Below, piece after piece: positions 8,723 through 38,953 of a stretch of DNA of 64,000 nt. The stretch is taken from contig JAHCAR010000003.1 in NCBI GenBank assembly GCA_019634795.1, positions 204,716 through 268,715 on the forward strand, in the 5' to 3' direction. The notes under the pieces are model-generated. The model was given only the letters and a program-made list of their open reading frames with translations. It made no database searches and was not told where the DNA came from. The stretch comes from Dokdonella sp. (lineage in GTDB: Bacteria; Pseudomonadota; Gammaproteobacteria; Xanthomonadales; Rhodanobacteraceae). How positions within the stretch are numbered: position 1 is the first letter of the stretch; the number at the start of each line of letters is the position of its first letter. The position numbers and the translations under genes are program-made.

Positions 8723-8876
8723 ATCCTGCAGAAGTCGCCAATTTGAAGTCAATTTGCAACAAGAGCAAAGCGTCAGGCGGTGCGAAGTACAGCCGTCGCT
8801 GCACGCGCGAATTGGCCACGCTATACCATAGGAGCGCCAAAAACGCCCCCTTCACTTGCGAGTGGTTGTAGTCGCT

Positions 8877-9272
8877 ATGAACGTGTCGTACTCTAATTAT
8901 GTGCACCGACCCAACCGACACCTGCCATCAATCTTGCGCGCCAGTTTTCTGGCGCTGCTGGTGCTTGGGGTGATGATCCGGCCAATGATTGGTCAGCTTG
9001 GGGCGCTGCATGCTGCTGAACATGTGACCTTGGGTAGCGTGAGCGAGCATGGGCACGACCATTCCGGCGACCGAGATCAAATGCCAGATCCCGATCACAC
9101 CAAGGGTGCTCATGGATTGATGCACCAGGGTGATACGGGTTCTGCGGCCAATATCTGGACTGCCGGGATTCAATCCCCAGAAGCGCCACCTGCGTCCAGA
9201 TTGCCGCAAGCCGACCTGGCTTCATCTCGGCCGCAGGTACTCACCTCACCGTTCCGACCTCCGATCGCCTGA
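8877..9272 (+). CDS. Small exported His/Asp-rich protein ahead of czcCBA
   Basis: 131-aa protein: basic N terminus, hydrophobic segment (residues about 18-45), then a His/Asp-rich part (EHGHDHSGDRDQMPDPDH) and a Pro/Ser-rich tail. Such small exported proteins often precede czc-type operons, and periplasmic metal binding is an inference from composition. It ends about 60 bp before czcC on the same strand. The ATG at 8877 has only a weak ribosome-binding site. A diverged copy of the first about 95 bp of this locus is found at 18,183-18,292, which shows that the 5' region was duplicated within the island. Confidence 0.6.
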   Translation: MNVSYSNYVHRPNRHLPSILRASFLALLVLGVMIRPMIGQLGALHAAEHVTLGSVSEHGHDHSGDRDQMPDPDHTKGAHGLMHQGDTGSAANIWTAGIQSPEAPPASRLPQADLASSRPQVLTSPFRPPIA

Positions 9273-9334
9273 CGCATCCAGCCGCTGGATAGCGGCATGA
9301 GTACTGCTGTCTGTCGATCTATCGGAGGTTCTCT

Positions 9335-10581: not shown

Positions 10582-10585
<4 letters not shown>
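9335..10585 (+). CDS. czcC: Outer-membrane efflux factor (CzcC-like)
   Basis: 416-aa TolC-family outer-membrane channel of a Czc-type cation exporter. Signal peptide residues 1-24 end at SGRAAEPL. The two homologous halves each contain long alpha-helical stretches and the AEAELRAIRARAQ style heptads of the channel tunnel. GTG start at 9335, preceded by a good GGAGG ribosome-binding site. Its stop overlaps the ATG of the adaptor gene (ATGA). First gene of a five-gene operon (czcC, czcB, czcA, hupE-like, anchor protein). The likely substrates (Zn, Cd, Co) are inferred from the czcA membrane motif. Confidence 0.92.
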
Positions 10586-15735
<5,150 letters not shown>

Positions 15736-15746
15736 TCGAGGCTCGC

Positions 15747-16412
15747 ATGACACTTCCCGAAACCCGGAACCAGAACTTGCCCAGCACGCGGCAACTGCTC
15801 AAGGCCACAGGTCTGTCCATTGTCGTGGCTGCGCTGTTGCTGGTGACTCTTGTCCTTCCAGCCGAATACGGTATTGATCCCACCGGCATCGGTCACCGAC
15901 TTGGACTCGATGTGCTCACTGCAGTACCCGAAGCTGCCGAGCCCCAGTCGCTGACCGCGCAAGCAGCATTGCCCATCGCCACTTCCGAAGCCGATGCAGC
16001 AAATGCCGCGCTTGCGGCGAGGGCGGAAGCCGCCTTTGGCAAGTCAGAAAGCCAGACACTTGATGCCGGGGCCGTATCGGCAGCCACCGGGCCAGTGCGT
16101 CGAGACTCGATGTCCGTCGAGCTGGCGCCGGGCAAGGGCGCCGAGGTCAAATCGCATCTGAAGACAGGTGAAGGCCTGGTATTCCACTGGGTTGCCAGCG
16201 GCGATGTTGCTGTCGACATGCACGGCGAACGTGAAGGCGTAAAGGACGCGTGGACGAGCTACGCGGTAGAAACCGCACAGCGCGAATCCTCGGGCACCTT
16301 CGTGGCGCCGTTTGACGGCAGCCATGGCTGGTACTGGAAGAACAACAGTGCCGAGCCGGTGACGGTGGAAATCGAGGTCGTTGGCTTCCAGCCCGACCTC
16401 TACCGACCCTGA
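15747..16412 (+). CDS. Membrane-anchored periplasmic accessory protein of the czc operon
   Basis: 221-aa protein with one N-terminal transmembrane helix (residues about 22-42), an Ala-rich linker (about 65-105) and a C-terminal beta-rich domain (SMSVELAPGKGAEVKSHLKT through HGWYWKNNSAEPVTVEIEV). Proteins of this architecture are often annotated as transmembrane anchor proteins next to HupE/UreJ-like genes in metal-efflux operons. It follows the hupE-like gene by 11 bp. Its role is unknown; assistance to the efflux complex is inferred from the conserved neighbourhood. Confidence 0.75.
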   Translation: MTLPETRNQNLPSTRQLLKATGLSIVVAALLLVTLVLPAEYGIDPTGIGHRLGLDVLTAVPEAAEPQSLTAQAALPIATSEADAANAALAARAEAAFGKSESQTLDAGAVSAATGPVRRDSMSVELAPGKGAEVKSHLKTGEGLVFHWVASGDVAVDMHGEREGVKDAWTSYAVETAQRESSGTFVAPFDGSHGWYWKNNSAEPVTVEIEVVGFQPDLYRP

Positions 16413-18314: not shown

Positions 18315-20105
18315 TCAGTCCGGTGCGCGCAACAAGACTTCATGGGGAAGCACCATCTCCTGGAAGAATTCTGACGCGACGCCCTCCTCGATCGCGGTGG
18401 ACAAGGTCAAGTGGGTCTTTGCGCGGGTCATGCCGACGTAGCACAAGCGCCGTTCCTCCTCAATTGGGGAATCCATGTGTGGAAGCAAACCATGCCCCAT
18501 GCCCATAATCCAGACGTAGTCGAACTCCAGCCCCTTGCTGCCGTGCAAAGTCATTAGTGCAATGGCGCGCGGATCGTGTTCCTGCTTCTTGTCGAAGCGC
18601 TCCATCAAGTCAATAGCTCGGATCTTGCTAGCGACATCACCTTGCAGACCGAGGATGCATTGGCAGGCTGCTTCGGCAATTTTCGCAGCCTTCTGCGAGC
18701 GGTCTACTGCAACTGTCATGCCGGCAATATGGTTGATAGCGCCTTCATAGTCCGCTTCGTCCAGCTTCTTGCTCACGGTCAATAGTGAGGCAGCCATCGG
18801 TGCCCAAGCCTGAAGCGCTTTCTTGTCGAGGTTCTTTTGCCAGTCCTTGGTCAAAAGGAACGGCACAGGACTATCCATGCCACGGGTTGCATTGGAAACG
18901 GCGCTGGTCAAATCGCGACAGGCCTGCTCTTCATGGAGATGCATGACGATGCCGCGCGAACCGCGACCGGCGAAGGCGCCTAGCAGGTTGCGGATCTTTT
19001 CGGGAATCCCGCCTGACCAAAAGTTCGGCTTGCCTTTGACGTAGTACGGCACATTGGCGCTAGTCAGCATGACTTCGGCGGAGCGCAGCACGTTGTTGGT
19101 GCGCGCGAGAATAGCGGCGGTGCATTGCTCGCCCTTGCGGTTAATATTGGGTCGCGAATTGAGGAATAGGCCAGCGGCTTTGGCTTCTTCTGCCTCATCA
19201 TAGAAATCCTTGCGGACCACTGCGCCGGGATCGGATTCGTTGGTTGTTATGGTTTTTCGAATGCGTTCTCTGTTCTTGATGATGAGTCGAATGGCGTAAG
19301 TCAGGACACTCGCCGAACAACGATAGGTGATGCCCAACGTAATTTCTTCGGCCTCAGTTTCGTCAGCAAAAGCGCGCATTGCCGTGAACCCGAGCGCATG
19401 GCGAAACCCGTAAATTGACTGATCGTCATCTCCGACACATGTCAATATCTTCCCACGGTCAACATGCGCCATGAGCCATGAGTACTGCGTGTGATCGACA
19501 TCCTGCATTTCATCGACAAGCAAGTGGGTACAGTCGATCGGATCGAGAATTCCTGAATGCAATCCGTTTGCTGCTTGAATGATCAAGTCGTCAAAGTCGT
19601 ACGCCTCCTGCTCAAAGAGAAGTTTCTGGTAGGAGATGAGTGCGCGGGCGAGTGGCCCCTTGGGATTCTGCGGCGGAATGCGTGACGCCTTGGCATCTGC
19701 CATTTCTTTCAAGAACTGTTGTTCAGGTTGCTCACTCGCTTCGGCCTGCCAAGCCCTCCGTCTAAGAATGTACGACTGGTCTTCGGAAAGAACGTTGAGG
19801 GGCGGCGAGCCTGCATTCTCGCGATAGTGTTTGAGTTGCTTCATTGCCAACGAATGAAAAGTGCCGGTGATGATGCGGCCACTCGCAGTCTGCCCCAAGG
19901 CTTTCTCCAAGCGCTCGGACATCTCCTTCGCAGCATCTTTGGTAAAGGTGATTGTGGCCACGCGGGCGGCGGGGTTGCTCTGAAGCAAGCGCTTGGCGCG
20001 TTCGACAAGGACGCGGGTCTTGCCGCTGCCCGGGCAGGCCGAAATAAGACAATGGCCCGGCGAGTCGACACCACGTTGTTGCTGAGGGTTGAGTAGCATG
20101 TTCAT
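18315..20105 (-). CDS. UvrD/Rep-type superfamily 1 helicase
   Basis: 596-aa ATP-dependent 3'-5' DNA helicase of the UvrD/PcrA/Rep class. Motif I ACPGSGKTRV (residues about 24-31), Ia ATITFTKDAAKEM, II LLVDEMQDVD (Met replaces the usual third residue of the DExQD box), III VGDDDQSIYGFR, V TLHGSKGLEFDYVWI and VI VGMTRAKTHL are all present, so it looks active. It is shorter than UvrD (about 720 aa) and lacks the C-terminal extension. The ATG overlaps the stop of the upstream gene (ATGA), but that gene is split by an IS21 element, so transcription from its native promoter is probably impaired. A role in island transfer, repair or phage defence is possible; the sequence does not decide. Confidence 0.9.
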   Translation of the reverse strand: MNMLLNPQQQRGVDSPGHCLISACPGSGKTRVLVERAKRLLQSNPAARVATITFTKDAAKEMSERLEKALGQTASGRIITGTFHSLAMKQLKHYRENAGSPPLNVLSEDQSYILRRRAWQAEASEQPEQQFLKEMADAKASRIPPQNPKGPLARALISYQKLLFEQEAYDFDDLIIQAANGLHSGILDPIDCTHLLVDEMQDVDHTQYSWLMAHVDRGKILTCVGDDDQSIYGFRHALGFTAMRAFADETEAEEITLGITYRCSASVLTYAIRLIIKNRERIRKTITTNESDPGAVVRKDFYDEAEEAKAAGLFLNSRPNINRKGEQCTAAILARTNNVLRSAEVMLTSANVPYYVKGKPNFWSGGIPEKIRNLLGAFAGRGSRGIVMHLHEEQACRDLTSAVSNATRGMDSPVPFLLTKDWQKNLDKKALQAWAPMAASLLTVSKKLDEADYEGAINHIAGMTVAVDRSQKAAKIAEAACQCILGLQGDVASKIRAIDLMERFDKKQEHDPRAIALMTLHGSKGLEFDYVWIMGMGHGLLPHMDSPIEEERRLCYVGMTRAKTHLTLSTAIEEGVASEFFQEMVLPHEVLLRAPD

Positions 20106-24147: not shown

Positions 24148-25369
24148 GGTCCGAGCTCGAAAGGAGACTGGAAAGCTGTACTTCGACTTCGTCTACTTCG
24201 GCCAGCGTTGTCGGGAGCAGACGGCTCTCGAAGATACCCCTGCCAATCGCAAACGAGTTGGGGCAGTGATGAAGCGCCTTGATGCCGAGATTGCAGCCGG
24301 CGTTTTCGACTACCGAGCCAATTTTCCAAACAGCAAGAACGCGGACAAGCTGGAAGCCGGCTTCCAGGGTACGGAAAACGGCAACGGGGCGGACTTTCGA
24401 AACACTATGGGGGAGTCCGCTCAAGCCCATTCACCGTTGTTCTCGGACTTTTCCGAAACGTGGCTTGCCGAGAACGAAGTGCGGTGGCGCCGCACTACGC
24501 GCGGTCTGCGTAGGGACATGATTCGAAGTCACCTGCTGCCCAAGTTTGGCGCCAAGCGGGTAGGGCAGGTGACTCGTGCCGAGTTGCTTGAGTTTCGGGC
24601 AGAGCTGGCCAAGCGACGGGGCAAGCAGCCGGACTCGACAATCTCCCCCAAAACCGTCAACGAAGTCATGGGCGTTCTCAGCAATATTCTTGATGAGGCG
24701 GCAGATCGCTATGAATTCGTCAGTCCGGCACAGCGCATCAAGCGACTCAAGGTGCCTCGAAAGGACATTCAACCCTTCAGCCTCGACCAGGCAATCCGCA
24801 TTATCGATTCGGCAAGGTCTGATTTCCGCCACTACTTTGTCACCCGGTTCTTTACAGGAATGCGAAGTGGTGAGGTGCATGGCCTCAAATGGAATTTCGT
24901 GGATTTCGACCGACGGCAGATTCTGGTACGGGAAACCTTTACTCATGGCGAGCAAGACGGCACCAAGACCGATGGATCCATGCGCGAGATCACGATGAGT
25001 GAGCAGGTATTCGAAGCGTTGAAAGCCCAGCACGAGTTGACCGGACACTTGGGTGACTACGTGTTCAGTAGTAGGAATGGAATGCCCATCGACCTCGCAA
25101 ACTTCGTATCCAGGGTGTGGAACCCATTGCTCGATCACCTCGCGCTCAAGCGGCGTAGGCCATACCAGATGCGTCATACGGCGGCCACATTGTGGCTTGC
25201 GTCTGGCGAAAATCCCGAATGGATTGCGCGCCAGTTGGGTCATTCGACAACCGAGATGCTGTTCCGTGTCTATTCCCGCTATGTGCCGAATTTGACCAGG
25301 CGCGATGGATCAGCTTTCGAAAGCATGCTCAGAGAAAACGCTGTGCGCAAGGTGGAGGAACGGAAATGA
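24140..25369 (+). CDS. int: Tyrosine integrase with Arm DNA-binding domain
   Basis: 409-aa site-specific recombinase. The N-terminal about 65 residues (GKVRARKETGKLYFDFVYF, RCREQTAL) match the DUF3596-type arm-binding domain of phage and island integrases. A SAM-like core-binding domain follows (residues about 95-185), then the catalytic domain with Arg in FTGMRSGEVHGLKW, Arg in YQMRHTAATLW, His in QLGHSTTEM and the nucleophile Tyr in FRVYSRYV. The first His of the HxxR box is Tyr, a substitution I believe is frequent in this subfamily. It is coupled to the upstream HTH gene and to the downstream HD gene (ATGA). No att repeats for it were identified in the window. Confidence 0.93.
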   Translation: MGKVRARKETGKLYFDFVYFGQRCREQTALEDTPANRKRVGAVMKRLDAEIAAGVFDYRANFPNSKNADKLEAGFQGTENGNGADFRNTMGESAQAHSPLFSDFSETWLAENEVRWRRTTRGLRRDMIRSHLLPKFGAKRVGQVTRAELLEFRAELAKRRGKQPDSTISPKTVNEVMGVLSNILDEAADRYEFVSPAQRIKRLKVPRKDIQPFSLDQAIRIIDSARSDFRHYFVTRFFTGMRSGEVHGLKWNFVDFDRRQILVRETFTHGEQDGTKTDGSMREITMSEQVFEALKAQHELTGHLGDYVFSSRNGMPIDLANFVSRVWNPLLDHLALKRRRPYQMRHTAATLWLASGENPEWIARQLGHSTTEMLFRVYSRYVPNLTRRDGSAFESMLRENAVRKVEERK

Positions 25370-26202
25370 ACGCAATGAACAGCCAGCAAGCAAGATGCAT
25401 CCCTGCAGCAATTCTGAGCTGTCGGAATCCGCCTTCCGGGTCAAAGGAACCTGCACGTGTCCAGTTGATGAATGCGGATCTCACTCGAGAGGCAATCGAC
25501 TGGACGGAAACCTGGCTGATCGAGGACTCGTCGCGTGTGCATCTCGGGCTAGCAACCGTACTTGAAACTCGCGAGGGGGGTCGAGACGAGCTTATACTGC
25601 TGGATTGGAAATCCGACTCCAGCCTTGATCTGCTTGCGCTCTTGCCTGAAACGATCTGCCCGGTGGAGGGCACAGTGGCTCAGGTTCGCGAAGTTGTCGC
25701 AAACCTCAAAGTCCCGGAACTGCGGAACTTCGTCCTCCAGGTTTTCGAGCTCAAGGACGTATTCAAATATTTTTGGACGTGCCCAGCGTCCATTCGAAAT
25801 CATCACGAATTCGCAGGAGGTTTGGCCGTACACAGCCTGGAAGTGGTGACTGCGGTCACCCAGCTCAGGAATCTTGGACAGACGGATCTCTGCATCGCTA
25901 TCGTTTACGCATTGCTTCATGACGTGGGCAAGATTTGGAGCTACGAAAACGGGACGCTGACCGCCGAAGCTGCAGAGCTCGGTCACGAGCATCTCGGATT
26001 GGAGCGCATGCTGCCGTCACTTCAACGGCTTCGCCGCCAGTGGCCGAAAGGGGGATTGGTGCTCCATGGCCTATTTTCCGGCGGGGGATACCGTGAGGAC
26101 AAACGGCGCGGGCGTGCCATCGGGAAAATTGTTCGCTCGCTTGATGCCTTTAGTGCAGAGAAATACATGGCACGTCCGAAAAGTCAGAGATTCAAGAGTT
26201 GA
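25366..26202 (+). CDS. HD-domain phosphohydrolase-like protein
   Basis: 278-aa protein. After an N-terminal region of about 130 residues, an HD domain reads NHHEFAGGLAVHSLEV ... VYALLHDVGKIWSY ... ELGHEHLGLERML, with the metal-binding His, His-Asp and His spacing of YhaM / TraI_2-type proteins. YhaM is a 3'-5' exoribonuclease, and TraI_2 domains occur in mobile-element relaxases; which applies here is open. The start ATG overlaps the integrase stop (ATGA), so it belongs to the integrase operon. The HD pair is intact, so it is probably a nuclease or phosphohydrolase. Confidence 0.8.
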   Translation: MNAMNSQQARCIPAAILSCRNPPSGSKEPARVQLMNADLTREAIDWTETWLIEDSSRVHLGLATVLETREGGRDELILLDWKSDSSLDLLALLPETICPVEGTVAQVREVVANLKVPELRNFVLQVFELKDVFKYFWTCPASIRNHHEFAGGLAVHSLEVVTAVTQLRNLGQTDLCIAIVYALLHDVGKIWSYENGTLTAEAAELGHEHLGLERMLPSLQRLRRQWPKGGLVLHGLFSGGGYREDKRRGRAIGKIVRSLDAFSAEKYMARPKSQRFKS

Positions 26203-26385: not shown

Positions 26386-28254
26386 ATGAAAGGATTGCTT
26401 GTATTTCCAGATGACGTCGCGGCAGTTGACCTGTTGCACGCGGAGCCGCTTGCAAGAACCATCGTCGAAGTAATGCAGGCCCATCCGAAGCACGGACTAG
26501 TACTGGGCATCCATGGAGATTGGGGCGCAGGGAAGTCGACGGTTCTTTCGCTGGTGGAGAGTGGGCTGGCCAAGCAAAAGAGCGTGGCGACTCTTTGGTT
26601 CAACGGATGGGAGTACGAGGGCTTCGAGGATGCCAAGATCGCGATCTTGGAAGGGATTGTTCGGCACCTCCAGCAGAACGAGAAGTACTTCGAGAAGGCG
26701 AAGGACCACTTTCATCGCCTGCGCAAACGCATCGACTATATGAAACTGGCTCGAGCCGCCGTGGTCGGCGGTGCTGGAATGCTGGCGGCAGGTCCGGTGG
26801 GACTGGCATTGATGCTTCCCACATTGCTCGACCCCAACAAGGCGGGGGAGAACTTCGACAATGCGACGGGCATTTTCAAGGATGCCGATGGTAAGGACGA
26901 CCCACTTGATCTGCATGGCTTTCGCCGGGATTTCCTTGCCATGCTGGAAAAGGCTGACATCGCACAGCTGGTCGTACTCGTAGACGATCTGGATCGTTGC
27001 CTTCCAAAAACCGCTATTGGTACCTTGGAGGCCATACGGCTACTGATATCGGGAGAGCGCACTGTCTTCGTCCTTGCCTGTGACAGGTCCATGATCGAGT
27101 ACGCGGTACGTGAACACTTTCCTGAGCATCCGGGCATGAAGGGGGACGAGTATGCGAGGAAGTACCTCGACAAGCTGATTCAGATCCCATTCGTGCTTCC
27201 CGTGCTTGGTCCGCTTGAGGTCGGTATCTACGTGCAGTTGCTCCTGCTCGAGGGGATATTCGGCAGTGCCGATCCCGGTTTCATCAAAGTGCTGGAGCAG
27301 GCGAGGGAGTTATCCAAGAGGCCTTGGATCGACCAGCAGTTGGACATGGCGCCAATCCATGATGCTCTGTCGAAGAACGAGTCGGCAAAGGAACTGCATT
27401 CGCTGATGCTGGGCATTGCGCCGGTGCTGGCTGCAGGGACGGAAGGCAACCCGCGGCAGATCAAGCGCTTCATTAATGCGGTCTTCGTACGCCGACGGGC
27501 TGCGGAAGCACGCGGTTTGGCGGAGGAAGTTCAAATCGCTCCTCTGATGAAACTTATGCTGGCCGAGTATTTCCACCGTGACCTGTTCGATGCAATTGCC
27601 AGCGAGAGCCGCGATGGCGATGGCAACAGCAAACTCGCTCGGCAATTGGAGGCGCCGCCAGCGGAGGACGCTGCAACGAAGAAGAGGGGCGGCAAAACCG
27701 TAGAACCGGTAGAGAAAGGCGAAGCGGTTCGGAGCGATTTTATTAACGACCCCAAGATTGTAAAATGGGCGGCCTTGGAACCGAAGATTGCCGACCTTGA
27801 CTTACGGCCATACCTGTTCGTAATTCGCGATGCTAGGCTCGTGTCCGCATCCAATCTGCCCGCCGAGGTCGCCGAACTGGTCGGTTTGGTCGGACAAGGA
27901 AAGTCGCTACTCGCGGAGAAAGCCAAGGTACAAAAGCTGACGCCCGAACTACGCGGGCTACTCGCTTCGGAGCTGGCGACACGGCTGACCACGGCGACCG
28001 ATGCCAGCAGGCAGTCCGCCTCTGCCAAGGGCATGAAGGACCTGATAAACCTGGATCCTAGCGTCGCGGGTATTGTTGACAGGGCCTTCGTCTCGCTGCC
28101 TATCTCGGCCATTGGGACTTGGATATCCGACCTCAGTCAGTTGGTCGAGTCGGGGACCAACTTCAGGTTGTGGTTGCAACAGGCGGTCGAACACGGCGCC
28201 AACAGGCAGCTTGCCTCGTTGATCCAGGCGTTACTGTCGAAACGCAGCAACTAG
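26386..28254 (+). CDS. qatA: QatA: KAP-family P-loop NTPase of the Qat defence system
   Basis: 622-aa ATPase. Walker A GDWGAGKST (residues 44-52), Walker B LVVLVDDLDRC (about 200-210) and the KAP-type insert containing hydrophobic stretches (about 125-150) are clear. KAP NTPases are often membrane-associated. It is the first gene of a cluster whose order NTPase / unknown / QueC-like / TatD-like DNase is exactly that of QatABCD, an anti-phage system reported from large-scale defence screens. A CAGGAGAAGG ribosome-binding site precedes the ATG. The 183-bp leader (26,203-26,385) is AT-richer and probably holds the promoter. qatB follows after 10 bp. Confidence 0.93.
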   Translation: MKGLLVFPDDVAAVDLLHAEPLARTIVEVMQAHPKHGLVLGIHGDWGAGKSTVLSLVESGLAKQKSVATLWFNGWEYEGFEDAKIAILEGIVRHLQQNEKYFEKAKDHFHRLRKRIDYMKLARAAVVGGAGMLAAGPVGLALMLPTLLDPNKAGENFDNATGIFKDADGKDDPLDLHGFRRDFLAMLEKADIAQLVVLVDDLDRCLPKTAIGTLEAIRLLISGERTVFVLACDRSMIEYAVREHFPEHPGMKGDEYARKYLDKLIQIPFVLPVLGPLEVGIYVQLLLLEGIFGSADPGFIKVLEQARELSKRPWIDQQLDMAPIHDALSKNESAKELHSLMLGIAPVLAAGTEGNPRQIKRFINAVFVRRRAAEARGLAEEVQIAPLMKLMLAEYFHRDLFDAIASESRDGDGNSKLARQLEAPPAEDAATKKRGGKTVEPVEKGEAVRSDFINDPKIVKWAALEPKIADLDLRPYLFVIRDARLVSASNLPAEVAELVGLVGQGKSLLAEKAKVQKLTPELRGLLASELATRLTTATDASRQSASAKGMKDLINLDPSVAGIVDRAFVSLPISAIGTWISDLSQLVESGTNFRLWLQQAVEHGANRQLASLIQALLSKRSN

Positions 28255-28264
28255 GGGAAGAGTA

Positions 28265-29134
28265 ATGGGGACATCGGCAAGCTACGGCGGTCCGAAAGGA
28301 ACCAATCCACTGATTCCGTCCTGGGTGGACACGCCGCTTCCCGGCGAGGCAGCTGCGCCGGCCGGCGATGACGGGAAGCAGCCTCCCGACGGCGGCGAAG
28401 ACGCGTACGATGGTGAGCTCGACAGGCCACCGGCACCAGCACTTGATCCCAACAGGCTGAAACCCCTTCGTGCGGCAATCCGGATCTCGGCCCGCTCGGG
28501 TGGCTCTGAGATTCGGGCAATGCGCGCAGCGGCACGTCATTTCGTTAGCAAATCGATGGGCGGTGCCAGTCGGGGGGCGCAGCGGATGGGAGTGGCGCGT
28601 CGCGCCGGCGGCAGGTTGGTCCAGGCATTCTCGGCGCTCGCGGCAGGGGGCGTGTCGCAGTTGGCGCGGGTGCTGCGACTTGGATCGCTCGCGGGCCTGT
28701 CGACATCCCAAGTGTGGGATCGGCTTGCGGAGTTTGTTTGCTCCGACGGCGGATCGATCGATGAAGCCATCGTCAAGGCAGCGTTTTGTCAGACGCTGAA
28801 GCAGGAGATGGACAATGGAATGACGGATCTGCTCGACGCGAATTCAGAGCAGCTTGCATCTTTTTTCGAACGCTTCATCGGCGAATGCGTAATCGAAAGA
28901 CTTTCCCAGGAGGGTGGGAGTCTTCTGGAGCAGAACGGTGTTTCCGCGGCAGCGGCATTCGCCCACATGCAGACGCTTCGTTCGCTGGTATCCGTGTTCA
29001 TCGCTCAGCGGCTGGGTGCTCGTGCAGGGCACGGATTATCAGTGAAATACGATTCCCGCCGGATCGATGTGATTGTTGCTGGGACCCTGCGAGATGCGAT
29101 CGCGGCCGTCGGCGAATGGGGAGAAGGCGAATGA
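28265..29134 (+). CDS. qatB: QatB: defence protein of unknown function
   Basis: 289-aa protein beginning MGTSASYGGPKGTNPLIPSW, the N-terminal style of QatB proteins. A Pro/Asp-rich linker (about 25-65) precedes an Ala-rich helical domain with several amphipathic segments (HFVSKSMGGASRGAQRMG, LVQAFSALAAGGVSQLARVL). No enzymatic motif is seen. Its place between the KAP ATPase and the QueC-like gene supports the assignment; the biochemical role in the system is not established. The stop overlaps the qatC ATG (ATGA). Confidence 0.85.
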   Translation: MGTSASYGGPKGTNPLIPSWVDTPLPGEAAAPAGDDGKQPPDGGEDAYDGELDRPPAPALDPNRLKPLRAAIRISARSGGSEIRAMRAAARHFVSKSMGGASRGAQRMGVARRAGGRLVQAFSALAAGGVSQLARVLRLGSLAGLSTSQVWDRLAEFVCSDGGSIDEAIVKAAFCQTLKQEMDNGMTDLLDANSEQLASFFERFIGECVIERLSQEGGSLLEQNGVSAAAAFAHMQTLRSLVSVFIAQRLGARAGHGLSVKYDSRRIDVIVAGTLRDAIAAVGEWGEGE

Positions 29135-30492
29135 GCCGGCAACGGATAGTGCTGACGTGGAACGGGGAACTGCCGAGGAAGTTCCGTGGTAGATTTTCCT
29201 ATTCCGTCCAGCTTGCTGCGCAACAGAAGAAGGTACGCTTCGGGCTTCACCAACTGCTGCGAGAACTAAAGCTCCAACACCGGCGGCCGGATCCTGTTGC
29301 GCTGGAGCTCGCCTTCGTCGCGGTTGCGGTCTGGATTGCAGACACGCGCCTGTCGCGTGCGGAGTTCTCCGAGGACAATTGGACGCGCGAGATCGAAATT
29401 GTTGTGCCCGTAAGGAATCCGGGCGCGTGGGAGGAACATGCCGCGCAGCTAGCGAGAATCCTGGGCACGCTGAGCGGAGACATCTGGACGGTCAGGTTCT
29501 ATCGGGCTGACCAAGCGCTGCGCGCCTACATCAAGGACAAGTGCGCCGATGCGCGGCCTCGTCAAGATGCGCCGCCCATTGCGCTATTCTCGGGCGGGCT
29601 GGACAGCTACGTCGGAGCCATCGATGCACTTTGCGGGGACCGTGTCCAGCCCGTCTTCGTCGGTCAGACCGACGCCGGAAACTCCGTCACAGTAAATGAA
29701 CTGAAGGCGCTTCTGGAGCGAGGACGCGAAAGTCCCCTCGCGCTGTTCCGGTGGCAAATGTCCTGCAAGGCGGGCGACCTCGGAGAGGGGTTTTCTGGTA
29801 GCGGCGAGCTGACGATGCGGGCGCGTTCGTTCCTATTCTTTGCCGCCAGCGTCCTAGTTGCGACGGCACATGGAAGCAGAATGATTCTTGTCCCGGAAAA
29901 CGGTTTCATTTCCTTAAATGTGCCGCTCGATCCGTGGCGCTTGGGCGCGCTTACAACGCGAACGACGCATCCGTATGTGATCGCACGTTTCAACGAGTTG
30001 CTGGCCTCCCTCGGTCTGTCGGCTGCGTTGTCGAATCCTTTCCAAGGAATGACCAAGGGCGAGATGCTCGCGCAATGCGCAGATCGAAAACTTCTTCGAC
30101 AGGGGCTCGGTTCCACCGTTTCCTGCTCAAAGCCCAAGTGGGTGAGGCGCTATCGGGCCCAGCATGGAACTAGTCATTGCGGCGTCTGTTGGCCGTGCCT
30201 GATTCGACGAGCTGCCGTGCGGCGCGCGTTCCCTTCCTGGAGCGACCCGACCAGATATGTGAATGAACAATTGTCTCATTTGCACGACGAGCCCGGTGAA
30301 GCAGGGCATGTGGTCCGTTCGATCCAATACGGCCTCAACATTCTGCGTGAGCCGGACGCGAAGTTGCGCTTATCCTTGGCAACTGTGGCGCCGCTTCGGG
30401 ACGTGGAGGACCAGATCGCCGATCTCGTCGGTTGCGTGCGCAGAGGGCTGGCCGAGGTCGCGCGTGTAGTCGGATTGCGCGCGCCGAGATGA
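29131..30492 (+). CDS. qatC: QatC: QueC-like PP-loop protein of the Qat system
   Basis: 453-aa protein of the adenine-nucleotide alpha-hydrolase fold. The PP-loop SGGLDSYVGAIDAL (residues about 151-164) follows an N-terminal domain of about 140 aa absent from QueC itself. Near the C terminus, VSCSKP ... HCGVCWPCLIRRAA supplies the zinc cysteines of QueC-type enzymes. QueC makes preQ0, a 7-deazapurine; QatC is thought to modify a substrate by related chemistry. I start at MSRQRIVLTWNGEL, whose ATG overlaps the qatB stop; the frame is open upstream only because it runs through qatB in another frame. Confidence 0.92.
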   Translation: MSRQRIVLTWNGELPRKFRGRFSYSVQLAAQQKKVRFGLHQLLRELKLQHRRPDPVALELAFVAVAVWIADTRLSRAEFSEDNWTREIEIVVPVRNPGAWEEHAAQLARILGTLSGDIWTVRFYRADQALRAYIKDKCADARPRQDAPPIALFSGGLDSYVGAIDALCGDRVQPVFVGQTDAGNSVTVNELKALLERGRESPLALFRWQMSCKAGDLGEGFSGSGELTMRARSFLFFAASVLVATAHGSRMILVPENGFISLNVPLDPWRLGALTTRTTHPYVIARFNELLASLGLSAALSNPFQGMTKGEMLAQCADRKLLRQGLGSTVSCSKPKWVRRYRAQHGTSHCGVCWPCLIRRAAVRRAFPSWSDPTRYVNEQLSHLHDEPGEAGHVVRSIQYGLNILREPDAKLRLSLATVAPLRDVEDQIADLVGCVRRGLAEVARVVGLRAPR

Positions 30493-31235
30493 TGTCCACG
30501 CCAAGCCGTGTCGACGCACACTGTCATGTCGATCTGTTGGACAATTGGCAGGAAGTCATCCGCAAACTTGAACGTAGGGCGCAGTTCACGCTTGCCGTGA
30601 CTACAACGCCGAAGGCGTGGGCGACGGAGCAGGAGTTCGCGCGCCATTGCCGGTATGTTCGGATCGGGGTCGGCCTGCATCCGCAAGTGGTGCGTGAGCG
30701 TATGGCTGAACTCCCCCTTCTGGAGCGTGCGATCGGCGACAGTCGATTTGTGGGTGAAGTCGGGCTTGATGCATCGCCGATGCACAAGGACAGCCTTCCT
30801 GACCAGCGAAAGGTCTTGGGTCGGGTCTTTTCGGTCTGCACCGAAGTGCGGGGGCGCGTGCTGTCTTTGCACAGCTTGCGCGCGGCAGGCTTGATTTTGG
30901 AGATGCTCGAAGAAACCAAGGTACATGAGACGAATACCATCATCTTTCATTGGTTTACTGGTAGTGCATCGGAACTTAAGCGTGCCTTGTCTATGGGCGC
31001 GAAGATTTCTGTCAACGCTGACATGCTCCGAACCGAGAGAGGGAGATCGCACGCGCGCATGGCCGGACCAGAGTGCACTCTCACTGAGAGCGATGCTCCT
31101 TTTACGAGGGCGCACTCCTCGGTTGATGGGGTTCCTAACATGGAGCCAGCGATTAACGCTTTGGCTGAGTGTTGGGGCGTATCGGTACCAGTGGCTATGA
31201 GCAGCGTAGCGCACTTAGCTCACCGGTACTGGTAG
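30489..31235 (+). CDS. qatD: QatD: TatD-like metal-dependent DNase of the Qat system
   Basis: 248-aa TatD-family hydrolase (TIM barrel, two divalent metals). Metal ligands are visible in order: VDAHCHVDLL (His-x-His), VGEVGLDASP (Glu), LSLHSLRAAG (His), IFHWFTGS (His) and LTESDAPF (Asp). The catalytic set is complete. The start MMSTPSRVD overlaps the qatC stop (ATGA). In the Qat system the TatD homologue is expected to be the nuclease effector; the exact target is not known from sequence. Confidence 0.93.
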   Translation: MMSTPSRVDAHCHVDLLDNWQEVIRKLERRAQFTLAVTTTPKAWATEQEFARHCRYVRIGVGLHPQVVRERMAELPLLERAIGDSRFVGEVGLDASPMHKDSLPDQRKVLGRVFSVCTEVRGRVLSLHSLRAAGLILEMLEETKVHETNTIIFHWFTGSASELKRALSMGAKISVNADMLRTERGRSHARMAGPECTLTESDAPFTRAHSSVDGVPNMEPAINALAECWGVSVPVAMSSVAHLAHRYW

Positions 31236-31441: not shown

Positions 31442-32071
31442 TTACCATGCAGAATTTACTCGAATTGGAGACAGCGGAACCTCCCGAACCTCACCCTTCT
31501 GGTTACCGATCGACAAGCTGGCCTGGATTTTCCAAGGTGATGGTCGGTACCAATCGCATGCGGCCGTGATCAAATCTTCGTTGGCGCGGCGCCGATAGAA
31601 ATCGTCAATGAGTTCGCGCGAGAGTGAGTTGTTTGGTAGATGCGCGTGCGATGCAGAAAGAGAAAAGACTTCGGGAAATGGTCGGGCCGCAGCTTTCGAT
31701 CTCTGAAGCATCCGTGGCGGGAAGTTCGCTTTTGGACGTTGGCGCTGCGCCTGTTCTTGGAACAAAGGTGCTTGAAAGTCGATGACCTTGTCACCTGCCT
31801 CCACCCAGCAATGAAACGCCTTGTCATCAGAAGCTACTCCGTACGGCGTTGGCAAGCCAAAAGCAATCACGTCCGCGCCGTCCATCGGAAGTCTATATGC
31901 GGCCGCACCAAATACAGGCACAGCGTGCGTTCCGTGGCGCATCTTCAAAAGTTCTGCGCCGATGATCCCAAAGTAGCTACAGGCTAAAGAGGGATCTCCA
32001 TCTTCGTTGAGAAGCAAGCCATGAATCACGCGGAAAATTCGCTCGTAGTCACGAAGCGTCAGCACGCTCAC
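31442..32071 (-). CDS. DUF2026-like protein, papain/transglutaminase-like fold
   Basis: 209-aa protein. ACSYFGIIGAELL, FHCWVEAGDKVIDFQAPLF and YRRRANEDLITAA match the DUF2026 pattern as I remember it. The order Cys (ACSYF), His (FHCWVE), Asp (DFQAP) is that of a papain- or transglutaminase-like catalytic triad. I use the GTG at 32,071 because a GGAG lies about 9 nt upstream; the frame is open for 14 further codons. It sits between the Qat system and an antitoxin-like gene, convergent with qatD across a 206-bp gap in which I see nothing. Defence role possible, not shown. Confidence 0.65.
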   Translation of the reverse strand: MSVLTLRDYERIFRVIHGLLLNEDGDPSLACSYFGIIGAELLKMRHGTHAVPVFGAAAYRLPMDGADVIAFGLPTPYGVASDDKAFHCWVEAGDKVIDFQAPLFQEQAQRQRPKANFPPRMLQRSKAAARPFPEVFSLSASHAHLPNNSLSRELIDDFYRRRANEDLITAACDWYRPSPWKIQASLSIGNQKGEVREVPLSPIRVNSAW

Positions 32072-32523
32072 TGAAAAAGTCTCCGGGAAGGTTGAATTGA
32101 AAACCAACGCCAAGATAGCCCCAAACGGGATCTATTCCATAACCCTAATATTGCTCATTCTTGATGCGATGCAGCATGGCTCTCTGCAAAATCGCCCTGT
32201 TGCGTCCGTCGCACGGCCTTATCCGACTCCATAGCATTGGGATGATTACCGGCTGGAGAGGTGTCGCTACTCCGTTGGACTCGGGCCGCCGGCTCGAAGC
32301 GGTCGTGCAGTGAAACCTACTCACATTCTTCGAGCTCCAGGTGCCAGGGACTTCAACACTGAAGGTCCGCTGTGGGCGATTTCTGCCCTTCAAGAGTACC
32401 GATGAACAGCCACAGCAATATTCCGGCCAAGCTGATCAACTAACCGGTGTGCTGATCACCGCCAATCGGTTCAGACGATCAATTTTATCGGTGTGCGCAA
32501 CTGCAGCCAGTCAGCGACCCGCG
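32072..32523. other. Gene-free interval with a dispersed 24-nt motif
   Basis: No convincing coding region. At 32,477-32,500 it holds GATCAATTTTATCGGTGTGC followed by GCAA, 21 of 24 identical to 18,158-18,181 in the same orientation; both lie in gene-free decayed DNA. The interval may be remnant DNA from lost mobile elements. Confidence 0.4.
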
Positions 32524-32880: not shown

Positions 32881-35800
32881 TCAGCTTTTGTTTCTTTGTA
32901 GTGCTCTGAGAGCGCGTCCCAGAAGCGCGGCTAGAAGCACGGAATTGCGAACTCGCCTGCCGTTGGAACGACGGGTCACAAGAAGACCCAGCCCTTGCCA
33001 GCCTGCTGGGGGAAAGAAGTCGCGCGCAGTGGAGACAGGCAGCAGGATGGATTTCTGGTCTAGCCACCTCTTGGCGACCGAGAGACTGTCTACCCCCACG
33101 ATATTGGTCACTACCGCGTTGCATATGAATTTGGACGTTGGATTTAGTGAGTCAATAGCTTTTGGGAGTTTAGTTGCCACCAGCTCGAACTCCTCTTCGC
33201 TGCTGACTGCGATGTAGCCGCTCATTGGGTCGACACCTCGAAGCACGATGTCCCACGCTGGCTGCAGAGTTGGATCCTTGATCGCATGAGCCAGGCAATC
33301 CAAAATCCAGGATTCATCCACACGCGTCCCCTGAACCACAATCGTTTTCCGCATCGTAGCTATTGGTGCGCTAGCGGCATCGTTTGGGATGCCGGAAGCG
33401 AACTCCGGCAGACTCAACCCATATACATTTGTGTTTGTTGCTTCGAACAGTGTTGTTTGCCATTTCGCAGCCTCCGTTTGCGTCAAGTGCAGTGCACTCG
33501 ACACCAAGCCTGGTTCACCTGTTCGAATTCCTCTCAAGATAGCTTTGGCCACCGCAACAGTGGCAATCCTGCGCATGTCTGGCCCGACTGTCTCTGACGA
33601 TTCGCCCTTGTCACCGCCGTCGACTTCATCCGGGTGGAAATCAGTCCAAGTATCCATTAGACACGGAATTGCGCTGTTGGGTTCGAAGGAAGAAATCTTC
33701 GCCCTACTGAGTCGCTTTCGGCCGGAGGCCGGCGCCAGTCCTGCTAGAACTGAAAGCGCAGTGCTTGAGAGTTCTGCGGCCCGAGTTCGAGAACCCGGTG
33801 GTTGGATTAGCCCGGCTACATGAATATAGGTTTCCAGCGACGTGCGCATGCGCGAATGCCCGCGCCGGGATCTGTATTCTGCCGCGTGTGCCTGGCCCAT
33901 AGGCACGTTGGATCCAATGGCTCTGACGATAACGTCTCTTTTGGGCAACCAGCCGCGAGCACTGGATGGGACAGCCTCGCGCAATCCGGCCAACAAAGCA
34001 TCGTCTGCCATGAGCGCCAAGAACTCGTTGCTGGCAGAAGTATGCCTCCACCAGTAGGGTCGCGCGTCGGCTGCTCCAGTTACTTGACGCAGCGTCGGCG
34101 TAATCCAACACGTGAGGCGAGAGGTATCCATCGGACGCAAAGTTTCTGCGTCCAGAAAGAATGCGGTCCTATCACCGTCTGCACGCCATCGAAGGTCGTT
34201 TGTTTCATCCCTCCAGCGGAGCACGTCTCCCCAGCTACTCGCGGGCATCGTCTCTTCCAAACCCAGATGACGCACGCTTCGATTTGTTTTAGCGCCCACG
34301 TATGGGTTGCGTCGAACCAGCAATGCTCGTCGTCCATCAGAGATGACCAGCTCACGCACTTGGCGCAACAGCGTCTCCGAGGTGCGTGCGCCAGAGGCAA
34401 AACCCAAGCTTAGCGCTGCGGTCGCGGCCTCCAGATCACTTGTGGAACCACGTGAAGTTTGAGCGGTACGCTTTGTTTCTTTCAGCAGTTCGATGGCTTG
34501 CGAGATCTCGGAGGGAGTAACGTAGCCGACATCCGGAAAGCACCGGCCGTTTCGGCCGCTTCGGCCAATCGCGACGGACGGTGCTAGGCCTTTGGCAACC
34601 AAATAGCTATGGAAGTATGCGAGATAATCCTCCACTTTGCGGCTGTAGCTTGCAGATACAGAATCGAGACAATCACGATAAAGATCGTGGAAGTCCTCGG
34701 CATCCATGTCGCGAATACTGGCGTCAGGACGTTGAGCCAGAATCTGTGTGGCCGCCCCCAGCAAATACACATATACGGAACTTTGTTGGACAAACTTTTT
34801 CCATGGCGTGCCAAAGCGCAATCGATCATGTGCATATGCAGTGAAGGCGCGCATGAAGGAGTAGTCTTCTGGCCAAGCGGCGAGGCACTTTTCGAGGCGC
34901 TCAATAGTCTCTTTTCTAATAGCAGCGTCCGTTTGCACCTTGGCCTTGACGTATTTCAATTGGACAAACTTCTTTGAGTTTGTCTCGCTGCTCAGATCTA
35001 CATCGCACGGGAACGTCTTGATCTGGCCCTTCTTGTATCGAATAATCGCTTTGAGCGATTCGTAGGTTAGTGGCTTTGTTCCTGTATCCCTTGAGCGGCT
35101 CGGTGCCGGTGAATCGAGAGGCTCGGGTGTCAGCGCTTTGCCTGTTGTTGCAACCGCACCTTGAAACAACGAGATTACTCGATCGGAAGAGATTGCTGCT
35201 GAGGTAACTTCGCCCGTCCAAATGGCCCGCAATGGGGGAGGGGATTCGAAGCGGTGCGTCAAGGCGGCTGCGGCCAACAGAGCATCCAACGTTTCGGTGT
35301 GTGCGCCCGCGAAGATGCGCCTGGGTACCCATGCAGAAACAATGGCCTTGAGATCGGACGGTTCAATGGCGTCTGGTATGTATTGGCGGGCGCCAACGGC
35401 GGCCAATGCCACCGCCCCGCGCAGCAATTCGGATGTCGCTTTAGGCGGACCCAAATTTGGATCAGGCAGAAATGTTGGCACCACTATCGCGTCATTGAGT
35501 CCACGCAGTCGCTGTGCCTGGCGAATTCCTGAAACGATTCCCACTAGGCGAGTCTCGTCGGCCACTCCGTGCCAAAAGATAAGTGCCAAGAGCAGATGAA
35601 GTAAGCATCTATCGCCGTCAGGGATGGCTTTGCAATCGGCAAGCTCCTTGGAAAAATGATGCCGCAAGTAGTTTATTGCCGCATAGCCTGGAACGAAGTC
35701 CGAATGGAATACGCTGGGTGTAGGTGGAAATATATGGAAGCGCGGCAAACGTTTGACCTTCCAAGCGTGTTCCGTTTTTCCCCTCATCAGAAATTTTCGA

Positions 35801-38658
35801 AGGGCCTCTATGCGCAGCTCTATCTCTGCGATACCTTCCGCCTCCTTGCATACGAGGTCCGCCAGGAGCGAGACCTGGTCCGAACTGATGACATTCTCAT
35901 TGGCGGGTGAACTGGCCAAATCAGGCATGGCCACTAAAACTGTTTGTTCGACCAATTGTGTGATTGTTGTGCCCGATGATTTGCGCAACTCAGAGACGTG
36001 CTTTCTTTGCTCCTGAAAGCGACGTTTCTGACTTGTATTAATCTGCTGAATCACTTTGGTGATATTTTCTTTCAGTGGGGGGCGATGTCGCTCGAACACA
36101 TGAAAGTTGCTCGATCCGCCCATCAACGGGAGCCAGCCATCCGCCTTCAACATCTCGTCTACGTATTCGCTGGTGGTCTGCAAGTAGTGTTGGGGATCCA
36201 TGAAGCTCTCTTCCCCAAAAGGTTGAAGGCCAGCCTCCACGTGTCCAAGAAGCGCTTGAACGTACCCGCCTGGACACCCTGCCTCTCTCAAAGTAGTGGC
36301 AGTTCGATGGCGCAGAAAGTTGCGAGGCAGGATCCATCCGTCTGGCAATCGGGAGTCGAGCGCTTCGAGTTCCATGACGCGTACGCCAGCGCCATGGAAC
36401 ATGAACAGCAACGGTGAGGAGCCATCCAGCGCACCCTTGGCGGCGGCGCGCTGCGCTGGCGTAATTGCTCGATTGACGACCAATCGCTCCAGATGCTCGC
36501 CGTAGGCTGCGAATGAGGACTTGAGCATTGGGCACAAGGGAACCAAACGGGCGAAATGTCGTTCATCCGAAACCTTGTCGGAGATCACCGCAATCGACGT
36601 TGGCAGGCACAAGGCGGTGGTCGTGAGTTTTCCTAGCCGAAAGGTCGGTCGAAATGTCGTTGCTGCCATCAGCATCAATGCAAGGCTTGGAACGATTTCG
36701 CCGTGCAGTTCTATCGCACGCCGCCCTGTTGTACGCGTTGCCCGCGGAGACTGGATCAACCTTCGACAGACCGATGGTGCAATGCTGGCCGCAGCTTCTT
36801 TTGTCAGCATCAATCGACTTCCAGCCCGGCCTTGAGAACCAGGCGAAAGGCTGGGAGTAAAGCCATGACGTCCGATGGCTATGGCGTAATTCGCCTGGAT
36901 GTCTGACATGCGTGCCGAGTAGTACGACGTGGGTGTCGTGGCGACGCCGAGCGGATCTCCGCAAACCAGTTGGGACAGGCCAATGTCACCTGACTGCACC
37001 AACACTTCCAATTGATGTGCTCGATGCATCCTGGCCAAGGTGAATCGTGGCTCGGCATCTCGCTCAGTGGCAAGCCAATCACCAATGTGTGCTAACAACT
37101 CTTCCAGGGGCGCAGCGAAAAGGTAGCCCTCCGGAGTTGGTGGCAGGCAAGCCACGATTTCACAGAGCTCTTGCGGAAGGTGGATCTCAATTCGATCTCC
37201 AACCGGGGCCAAGAAGGCTTGTTGCTCTTCACTTGGTTTGAAACGAGGATCTGTTCCTGGAAGCGACATCGAAAGCAGACCGTCATTTGGCCGCACCCGG
37301 TCTTCGTTGCCATCCAGATTTTCTGAATCCTCGGTTCGAAGGCAGTGAGCACGGCTCGCGGAAAATCCCGTACAGGCGCAGAGGAGTGCCAAGGCGGCAG
37401 CCTCGCGCAAGGATGAGTTGGAGTCATCCCGACAGGATTGCCACTTCTTCCAAAGCTGTTCCTTGCTGTAACGCATTTCTGGCGCTGTAAGAGCGTCCCA
37501 CTGCCCTCGCGCCCATACACCTTGGCGCATGGCGCAACGCGCTCGAACGGCGAATGCCCGGCTTTTTGGTACCGAGGCTTCGGAGCGAGAGCTTTCGGTG
37601 ACAACGACTTCTTCGGGCGTGATTCGATCCTCGATTGTCTCTGCATCACGAGCAAGGTCTGCCAATGTCTCCGGCGATGGCGCGACCAGCGATCCGCGTA
37701 GAACGCGGGCTGTGATGCGGTCGTGAATCGGGGTCGGGGCGCTACGGACAATTCCTGATCGCGAACCGGGTCTGTGTTCGCGTGGGGCAGGGGATCTGCG
37801 AACTACTTGACTCTCTGTGGCACCTTCGCCCTCAGAGGTTGGTTCCAACTGCGCTGGAGTTTGGGCGAGCACGAAACCTTGCAGGGGCTCGGCTCCTGAT
37901 GGGCGCTCTGGCGAAGCCGTGTCGGTGGATGGGGGTGAAAGCCGATCAGAGACCAAATAGCCGTATTGCTTTACGAGCCGCAGGGGCGCGAGAACAGCAT
38001 TCACAACATCGGAGAGTTCCGGACGTCTACTGAGGATTTCGTTCGCTGTGGCGAGGCAGATTTCTGTATCTGGAACTGCCGTGATCGTCGTTGCCAAAAT
38101 AGCGAGTTCGACACGGGCGTCGCCTGTTGGGGGATTCTCAAGTGCTTTTGCGAAGACGCTGCGACCACGAAAGATGGGTGCGACTATCTCCCTCCGGTAG
38201 ATGACGTGGCCTCGGTAGCTCTGCTCAACATCTTTTCTAAACCAATCATCCGATGCGCACGCGAGGCAGGCCAGCCAGACTGCCAGTCTATCGAGGTTGC
38301 GCAGTTCGTCGCTTGGATCGCGGGTCGACAATGCGCGGTAGAGAGTTGGCTCAGTTGCTTCCTTCCAGCGAGAGTAATTTGCTGCTCGCAATTTTGTGAG
38401 TCGAGGCAAGCCACGAGCCACGAAGCGTTCAAGGTCCTCGAAGATTTCCGTGAGCGGCACTCCCCGGAGCACAATCCCCGCGTCCTCAATGCTCAGAGAA
38501 AGCAGTGTCGCTACTACATGCTGCAAGTCCCAAGGTCCGTCGCTTGGCGATTGAAGGAAGGCAAGAAAGACTGAGCTCGAAAACTTCAGTTCTTCACGCT
38601 CCCGCTTCCTCACGTACCAAGGAGTCTTGAACCAGCCCTCTCCGCGGAATTTCGCCAT
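32881..38658 (-). CDS. Giant (1925 aa) protein with two tyrosine-recombinase-like cores
   Basis: Uninterrupted 5.8-kb reading frame. The first recombinase-like core lies in about residues 420-830: Arg candidate in ACTGFSASRAHCL, an HxxR-like box in NFLRHRTATTLREAG (about 783), LLGHVEAG (about 803) and Tyr candidates in HYLQTTSEYVDEML (about 822). The second lies in about 1350-1620: GFASGARTSETLLRQVREL (Arg, about 1425), RPYWWRHTSASNEF (Arg, about 1536), RRGHSRMRTSLETYIHVAG (His and Tyr, about 1603). N-terminal (1-400), central (830-1350) and C-terminal (1620-1925) regions match nothing I know. It starts 236 bp from a tRNA-Arg 3' fragment, the usual position of an island integrase. Two active sites in one chain would recall the paired TnpA/TnpB recombinases of Tn554 fused together. 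Activity is inferred. Confidence 0.8.
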   Translation of the reverse strand: MAKFRGEGWFKTPWYVRKREREELKFSSSVFLAFLQSPSDGPWDLQHVVATLLSLSIEDAGIVLRGVPLTEIFEDLERFVARGLPRLTKLRAANYSRWKEATEPTLYRALSTRDPSDELRNLDRLAVWLACLACASDDWFRKDVEQSYRGHVIYRREIVAPIFRGRSVFAKALENPPTGDARVELAILATTITAVPDTEICLATANEILSRRPELSDVVNAVLAPLRLVKQYGYLVSDRLSPPSTDTASPERPSGAEPLQGFVLAQTPAQLEPTSEGEGATESQVVRRSPAPREHRPGSRSGIVRSAPTPIHDRITARVLRGSLVAPSPETLADLARDAETIEDRITPEEVVVTESSRSEASVPKSRAFAVRARCAMRQGVWARGQWDALTAPEMRYSKEQLWKKWQSCRDDSNSSLREAAALALLCACTGFSASRAHCLRTEDSENLDGNEDRVRPNDGLLSMSLPGTDPRFKPSEEQQAFLAPVGDRIEIHLPQELCEIVACLPPTPEGYLFAAPLEELLAHIGDWLATERDAEPRFTLARMHRAHQLEVLVQSGDIGLSQLVCGDPLGVATTPTSYYSARMSDIQANYAIAIGRHGFTPSLSPGSQGRAGSRLMLTKEAAASIAPSVCRRLIQSPRATRTTGRRAIELHGEIVPSLALMLMAATTFRPTFRLGKLTTTALCLPTSIAVISDKVSDERHFARLVPLCPMLKSSFAAYGEHLERLVVNRAITPAQRAAAKGALDGSSPLLFMFHGAGVRVMELEALDSRLPDGWILPRNFLRHRTATTLREAGCPGGYVQALLGHVEAGLQPFGEESFMDPQHYLQTTSEYVDEMLKADGWLPLMGGSSNFHVFERHRPPLKENITKVIQQINTSQKRRFQEQRKHVSELRKSSGTTITQLVEQTVLVAMPDLASSPANENVISSDQVSLLADLVCKEAEGIAEIELRIEALRKFLMRGKTEHAWKVKRLPRFHIFPPTPSVFHSDFVPGYAAINYLRHHFSKELADCKAIPDGDRCLLHLLLALIFWHGVADETRLVGIVSGIRQAQRLRGLNDAIVVPTFLPDPNLGPPKATSELLRGAVALAAVGARQYIPDAIEPSDLKAIVSAWVPRRIFAGAHTETLDALLAAAALTHRFESPPPLRAIWTGEVTSAAISSDRVISLFQGAVATTGKALTPEPLDSPAPSRSRDTGTKPLTYESLKAIIRYKKGQIKTFPCDVDLSSETNSKKFVQLKYVKAKVQTDAAIRKETIERLEKCLAAWPEDYSFMRAFTAYAHDRLRFGTPWKKFVQQSSVYVYLLGAATQILAQRPDASIRDMDAEDFHDLYRDCLDSVSASYSRKVEDYLAYFHSYLVAKGLAPSVAIGRSGRNGRCFPDVGYVTPSEISQAIELLKETKRTAQTSRGSTSDLEAATAALSLGFASGARTSETLLRQVRELVISDGRRALLVRRNPYVGAKTNRSVRHLGLEETMPASSWGDVLRWRDETNDLRWRADGDRTAFFLDAETLRPMDTSRLTCWITPTLRQVTGAADARPYWWRHTSASNEFLALMADDALLAGLREAVPSSARGWLPKRDVIVRAIGSNVPMGQAHAAEYRSRRGHSRMRTSLETYIHVAGLIQPPGSRTRAAELSSTALSVLAGLAPASGRKRLSRAKISSFEPNSAIPCLMDTWTDFHPDEVDGGDKGESSETVGPDMRRIATVAVAKAILRGIRTGEPGLVSSALHLTQTEAAKWQTTLFEATNTNVYGLSLPEFASGIPNDAASAPIATMRKTIVVQGTRVDESWILDCLAHAIKDPTLQPAWDIVLRGVDPMSGYIAVSSEEEFELVATKLPKAIDSLNPTSKFICNAVVTNIVGVDSLSVAKRWLDQKSILLPVSTARDFFPPAGWQGLGLLVTRRSNGRRVRNSVLLAALLGRALRALQRNKS

Positions 38659-38893: not shown

Positions 38894-38941
38894 TGGCTAC
38901 GAACTTGGTGGTCGGGAGTTCGAATCTCTCCGGGCGCGCCA
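38894..38941 (+). other. 3' half of tRNA-Arg(ACG), probable island attachment site
   Basis: GGCTACGAAC carries an anticodon loop CTACGAA (anticodon ACG). The following GGTGGTCGGGAGTTCGAATC... gives the variable loop and a T arm (GGGAG-TTCGAAT-CTCTC), then CGGGCGC-G-CCA as the acceptor 3' strand, discriminator base and encoded CCA. The matching 5' half (acceptor GCGCCCG and D arm) is absent; upstream sequence is unrelated and AT-rich. Integrative elements commonly duplicate the 3' part of the tRNA they enter, so this is read as the right attachment site, with the intact tRNA gene expected beyond the left edge. Confidence 0.8.
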
Positions 38942-38953
38942 TAAAGAAGCATC

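Follow-up and report, generated by a model that had tools for sequence, protein, structure and literature searches.

A putative two-gene fusion recombinase at the end of a tRNA-integrated genomic island in Dokdonella

RESULTS

A long frame barely visible to family models

A single open reading frame (ORF) of 1925 amino acids (aa) lies in a 64,000-nucleotide stretch of the Dokdonella sp. assembly GCA_019634795.1 (contig JAHCAR010000003.1, positions 204,716 to 268,715; this whole stretch is called the window below), and its product, YZ, joins two recombinase-like proteins, Y and Z (Table 1). The frame begins with ATG and is free of internal stops, as an earlier note made from the letters alone had read it, and the motifs quoted there are in place: RNFLRHR at residue 779, LGHV at 804, and GARTSE at 1423, followed by YWWRH at 1535, RGHSR at 1599, and TYIHV at 1610. 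A single-sequence search of 398 phylum genomes detected relatives of at least one half in 12, the window genome counted, and we therefore regard the frame as coding rather than a product of chance.

Standard family models barely see this protein. The sole Pfam match to the chain was Phage_integrase (E = 0.14, residues 782 to 807), and PHROGs returned an integrase family (1.3e-5, residues 1311 to 1544); the NCBIfam scan of the chain gave no match, nor did the PADLOC scan at 0.001. Among the models searched here, the family carries no name, and its relatives are annotated as hypothetical protein, integrase, or site-specific integrase. An open-access literature search met no description of the fused or split Y/Z pair, a search whose scope left the main Gamma-Mobile-Trio (GMT) paper outside, so that absence from print is not established.

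TABLE 1 Features of the YZ locus and its surroundings (window positions)
Feature	Position	Strand	Basis or remarks
Putative fused Y-Z recombinase, 1925 aa	32881..38658	-	Y half, about residues 1-850; Z half, about 857-1924; profiles and split homologs
Y lobe 1, residues 384-602	36853..37509	-	Predicted catalytic fold; keeps only Tyr579
Codon of Tyr579	36922..36924	-	Residue conservation
Y lobe 2, residues 614-842	36133..36819	-	R670, K695, N780, R783, H806, Ser818; without Tyr
Z catalytic core, residues 1373-1618	33805..34542	-	R1425, K1457, Y1535 (usually His), R1538, H1601, Y1611
3' half of tRNA-Arg(ACG) plus a few bases, element end	38895..38945	+	51-nt exact repeat of intact tRNA at G000:C23:167873-167949
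Ordinary tyrosine integrase (Int), 409 aa	24140..25369	+	Arm-DNA-bind_2 and Phage_integrase; frequent Y/Z partner
HD-domain/TraI_2-like protein adjoining Int	25192..26202	+	Family scan
QatA, QatB, QatC, QatD antiphage defense system, cargo	26386..31235	+	PADLOC, E = 8e-161, 4e-51, 2e-116, 3e-75
DUF2026 protein, cargo	31442..32113	-	Family scan
UvrD-type helicase	18315-20105	-	Near GajB models, E = 7e-63

Fused and split forms of Y and Z

In most relatives Y and Z are adjacent ORFs, and by this comparison the 1925-aa protein is a fusion of the two genes; the suggestion of the earlier note that it is a single-chain relative of a recombinase pair was therefore right in kind. The split genes are neighbors on the same strand, often overlapping, in the order Y then Z, with about 740 to 915 aa for a complete split Y and about 730 to 1285 aa for a split Z. 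The Y profile matches the window chain over residues 1 to 850 (E = 4e-196) and the Z profile over residues 857 to 1924 (E = 4e-253), E-values that are not independent because both profiles contain the window row; in profile-free pairwise BLAST, the first half matched a split Y at about 5e-17 at best and the second half a split Z at about 3e-12. Fused chains were examined at eight loci (the window, L022, L026, L080, which is cut at its start, L116, L117, L118, and L120), and in every one of them the Y part is followed by a Z-type GH...Y.H motif. Z is recognized chiefly by this motif in L117 and L118, where the Z profile is silent at 1e-8; L118 also has a weak Pfam integrase match (residues 1359 to 1482, E = 0.034).

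A census of the window's class found Y in 14 of 369 genomes (17 match rows), and five of the rows lie in fused frames of 1495 to 1925 aa (the window, G505:C4, G612, G412, and G560); a sixth census locus, in G535, has frames of 521 and 1278 aa and is broken or unclear. Beyond the class, Y/Z genes occur in Mariprofundus, Nitrospirae, and Deltaproteobacteria records. Many split loci have a small gene, X, directly ahead of Y, and one of four X proteins scanned was weakly ParB-like (E = 0.02, below the cut-off). When X was sought with a cleaned profile at E-values up to 10 in ORFs of at least 100 aa, none was found in the window, L022, or L026, and L080 gave a marginal match only (0.009).

Several further loci were seen along the way. 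G505 holds a fused chain of 1825 aa, a separate split X-Y-Z module, and two Int genes in one genome (L116, L124). Y or Z frames are in pieces at L064, L065, L053, L074, and L128, which suggests that the modules are decaying or that the assemblies contain errors. Acinetobacter accounts for over 200 of the plasmid records with Z-like genes (218 of 223 and 223 of 226 matched records); the one such plasmid examined, pTol5 (L038), has a small gene, a Y-like gene, and a Z-like gene in series.

A complete catalytic core in Z

All of the pentad plus Tyr nucleophile of the tyrosine recombinase superfamily can be placed in the Z half. Near-duplicate, partial, and broken copies excluded, 40 Y/Z pairs were compared, and the Arg, Lys, Arg, His, and Tyr corresponding to R1425, K1457, R1538, H1601, and Y1611 are present in every pair; the remaining pentad position is His in 37 of the 40 and Tyr1535 in the window, a change from His to Tyr that the published pentad R-K-(H/Y)-R-H permits (PMC8152469). 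Judged by these residues, the Z half is a complete tyrosine-recombinase core. Its predicted model aligns to the whole of XerA over 419 to 767, with a root mean square deviation (rmsd) of 16.2 and the domain orientation unmatched, and its structural matches include YopR, MrpR, and SroF.

Two lobes with complementary residues in Y

Structure models predict two catalytic folds in tandem in the Y half and hence three in the whole chain: three separate regions of the models matched the tyrosine-recombinase catalytic fold, lobe 1 most weakly. The earlier note had proposed two recombinase cores, open to refutation by structure prediction; a recombinase fold is predicted in both of its regions, and its count fell short by the extra fold at about residues 384 to 602.

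The residues kept by the two Y lobes differ. R670, K695, R704, R783, G805, and H806, in lobe 2, are present in 52 of 52 Y rows, and position 780 is Asn in 44 of them. At position 818, 12 residues past the His of the GH motif, the same rows have Ser (48), Asp (3), or Thr (1) and never Tyr, and the tyrosine that the earlier note had taken as a residue of its first motif set (in HYLQTTSEYV) is not conserved among relatives. Tyr579 of lobe 1 is present in all 51 rows that cover it; one further row begins later. A 37-row alignment, in a family whose identity to the window row is 15 to 19%, has only eight invariant columns: Y579, R670, K695, R704, R783, G805, H806, and S818. At the catalytic Arg and His places of lobe 1, as given by its match to XerD, no residue is conserved; a basic residue is common at position 543, two places off the expected Arg II (37 of 40 and 44 of 51 rows). 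Neither lobe by itself holds the pentad plus Tyr. Conservation in Y is by these alignments complementary, with a Tyr but no Arg/His in lobe 1 and R-K-R-H but no Tyr in lobe 2. The idea that one core had degenerated was borne out to this extent: the core at the first motif set no longer has its Tyr, and a different lobe upstream keeps one.

Some Y/Z loci lie at island ends in tRNA genes

The tRNA-Arg(ACG) fragment is 236 bp ahead of the start codon of the fused gene, a placement that the earlier note had seen, and it shares an exact 51-nt repeat with an intact tRNA-Arg(ACG) gene on the same contig, about 3.5 kb before which lies a tmRNA gene. The two repeat starts are 75.7 kb apart, and the YZ ORF thus lies at the end of an integrated island. 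The attachment (att) repeat consists of the 3' half of the tRNA, beginning at the anticodon arm, and the marks of a tRNA-integrated genomic island are all present: an integrase and, at each end, a copy of the tRNA 3' end in direct repeat.

Three other genomes share this layout, in which XYZ stands at the fragment end and reads inward. The Mariprofundus ferrooxydans island (60.5 kb) has a 37-nt exact repeat of tRNA-Arg CCG; that of G243 (66.3 kb) has a 47-nt exact repeat of tRNA-Gly TCC, with an Int remnant adjoining the intact tRNA and XYZ at the opposite end; and in Aeromonas caviae 55 nt of tRNA-Asp exactly repeat a copy 46.4 kb off, a probable partner given that other matching copies exist. 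More widely, in 8 of 55 eligible loci the 1 kb upstream of Y contains an antisense tRNA 3' end, where hit density would predict 0.52 such loci; one of the eight (L123) is an intact tRNA-Val, and two are fused chains (the window and L120), whose fragments both read as tRNA-Arg(ACG). Another fragment, of tRNA-His, is 285 bp upstream in L044, outside the eligible set with less than 1 kb available. The expectation that homologs would sit at element ends thus holds for some; in 47 of the 55 eligible loci no tRNA 3' end of this kind was seen upstream of Y. In L070 to L073, L077, L022, and L118, an intact tRNA is instead 0.7 to 3.9 kb from Int.

A linked integrase and the cargo

Of 57 distinct Y/Z loci, 31 carry a close relative of the window Int; among the 41 loci with at least 13 kb, the number is 28. 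In a control search of the 369 class genomes (Int threshold, 1e-80), Int was found in 12 and Y in 14, with both in 10, Int alone in 2, and Y alone in 4 (Fisher P = 5.7e-15, treating genomes as independent and with the window genome among the ten). QatA to QatD are placed between Int and YZ. The HD-domain/TraI_2-like protein may be part of the mobility module, since look-alikes, recognized by reading, follow Int in L071 and L073.

Other observations concern the cargo. One of two XYZ loci of G395 (L021:12124-16898) has four genes that on reading resemble Qat directly after Z. From reading of the translations, window positions 330 to 16412 hold efflux-pump and outer-membrane-factor genes, suggestive of heavy-metal resistance cargo, and similar genes start shortly past the intact tRNA-Arg in L032. 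An IS21-like element, labeled in the same way, also lies in the island part of the window, as does the UvrD-type helicase (Table 1).

DISCUSSION

A proposed integration and excision machinery

Our combined results favor, with moderate confidence, the interpretation that YZ is a single-chain form of the Y+Z pair and that the pair works alongside the linked Int, joined by X in many split relatives, on behalf of a class of genomic islands, several of which occupy tRNA genes. YZ and Int together as the integration/excision machinery of the island is the best reading of the locus. Excision would join the two island ends and so bring the start of Y-Z next to the att core, where Y and Z, as one heteromeric unit that is covalent in the present case, would bind together with Int; the Y:Z ratio would be fixed at 1:1 by fusion, and Z would make its own cuts. 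Y could be a structural partner, or could make a cut for which lobe 1 supplies Tyr579 and lobe 2 the R-K-R-H pocket. The plan would then have four components, two complete recombinases, a degenerate partner with a recombinase fold, and a small protein, and would work as do the strand-biased circularizing integrative elements (SE; PMC10214605) and GInt elements.

Two views of Y have to be weighed. Because conservation in its lobes is complementary, a single active site divided over them is suggested, with Tyr579 in lobe 1 and R670, K695, R783, and H806 in lobe 2; together with Z this would give a three-lobe, single-chain machine for tRNA-integrated defense islands, a proposal that we put forward tentatively and consider rather doubtful. 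The other view, to which we give a substantial chance though one short of even, is that only Z cuts and that the Y half is catalytically dead and structural, like Tfp of SEs and GinC of GInts, with Tyr579 kept for folding. It has the SE/GInt precedent (PMC10214605) and fits the want of conserved catalytic Arg/His in lobe 1 and of Tyr in lobe 2. A dead site should drift, however, yet the four lobe 2 residues are present in every row of a highly divergent family and Tyr579 is among its few invariant columns.

We consider it unlikely that Int alone integrates and excises the island, with YZ as a distinct enzyme at the element end that nicks DNA for transfer or replication in the manner of the tyrosine-recombinase-like relaxases MobK, TcpM, and MpsA. 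In favor of this view, YZ has a complete Int linked to it and recombinase-like relaxases do exist, but they are reported without a core-binding domain (PMC8152469), whereas the Z model aligns to the whole of XerA (with the rmsd and unmatched orientation given above). The proximity of Y or YZ to a tRNA 3' end in the eight loci, one of them an intact tRNA, also argues against it. That YZ is a regulator on a recombinase fold is highly improbable, even counting in its favor that YopR, MrpR, and SroF are among the Z structural matches and that some of these are repressors not known to recombine DNA.

If the interpretation of YZ and Int as a joint machinery is correct, these genes would represent a family of mobility systems for genomic islands that has gone unrecognized, occurs both in the window's class (14 of the 369 genomes sampled) and outside it, and moves cargo such as the Qat defense system. 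Y/Z would then be a marker for islands whose mobility genes bear only generic labels. The division of residues over lobes hints at a new way of building a recombinase; a divided active site would be directly testable by point mutants and would bear on how labor is split among tyrosine recombinase subunits (Flp, Xer, SE, and GInt).

Comparison with known systems

SEs are one close parallel. Their IntA, Tfp, IntB, and Srap follow the same plan of four components, in which two complete tyrosine recombinases are accompanied by a small protein and by a protein that has the recombinase fold but not the catalytic Tyr, and, as in Y/Z loci, they are encoded by overlapping genes at one end (PMC10214605). 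SEs have imperfect terminal inverted repeats of 13 to 19 bp; the islands here are large, have direct tRNA repeats of 37 to 55 nt, and include fused forms and a Y with two predicted catalytic folds. The X and Y profiles showed no relation to 12 proteins of three SE or SE-like operons (one published SE operon and two chosen by likeness and gene order; the positive control for Y matched, and none was run for X). Z gave weak generic scores to the first genes of two operons (E = 0.0005 and 0.017, 16-row set), and its positive control matched. Separately, four-gene operons resembling SEs or GInts (integrase, hypothetical, integrase/hypothetical, and small protein) were seen on conjugative plasmids of Escherichia coli (L134) and Shewanella (L135).

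GInts (Tn6571, ginABCD) similarly have three integrases, one incomplete, and a small protein, all needed for movement, and form cargo islands that include defense genes, as described in PMC5385486 and PMC10121019. Their attL/attR repeats are imperfect and 10 to 11 nt long, whereas those of four elements here are exact (51, 37, 47, and 55 nt) and fall outside that pattern, and their named sites are protein genes rather than tRNA genes; this separation is by description only. Tn554, likened by description only, also joins a recombinase pair to a small protein (TnpA, TnpB, and TnpC), with the RHRY motif in both TnpA and TnpB (PMC10214605).

Identity with the Gamma-Mobile-Trio was tried by model and rejected: GmtY NF040693 (441 positions) scored over the cut-off in none of five Y/Z-carrying genomes and had no match at Y/Z genes, and no GMT model matched in NCBIfam scans of 10 proteins. 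GmtX, GmtY, and GmtZ are likewise a three-gene mobility module on defense-cargo islands. Integrases that target tRNA genes share with the linked Int its domain makeup (Arm-DNA-bind_2 and Phage_integrase) and the tRNA 3'-half att repeat; such islands normally need one integrase, whereas the island end in this case also has a second recombinase beside it, of far greater size. In Flp-type trans cleavage, the unit that activates the phosphate does not supply the Tyr, which comes from a different one; in Y, were the active site divided as proposed, the donor would be a tandem lobe of the same chain.
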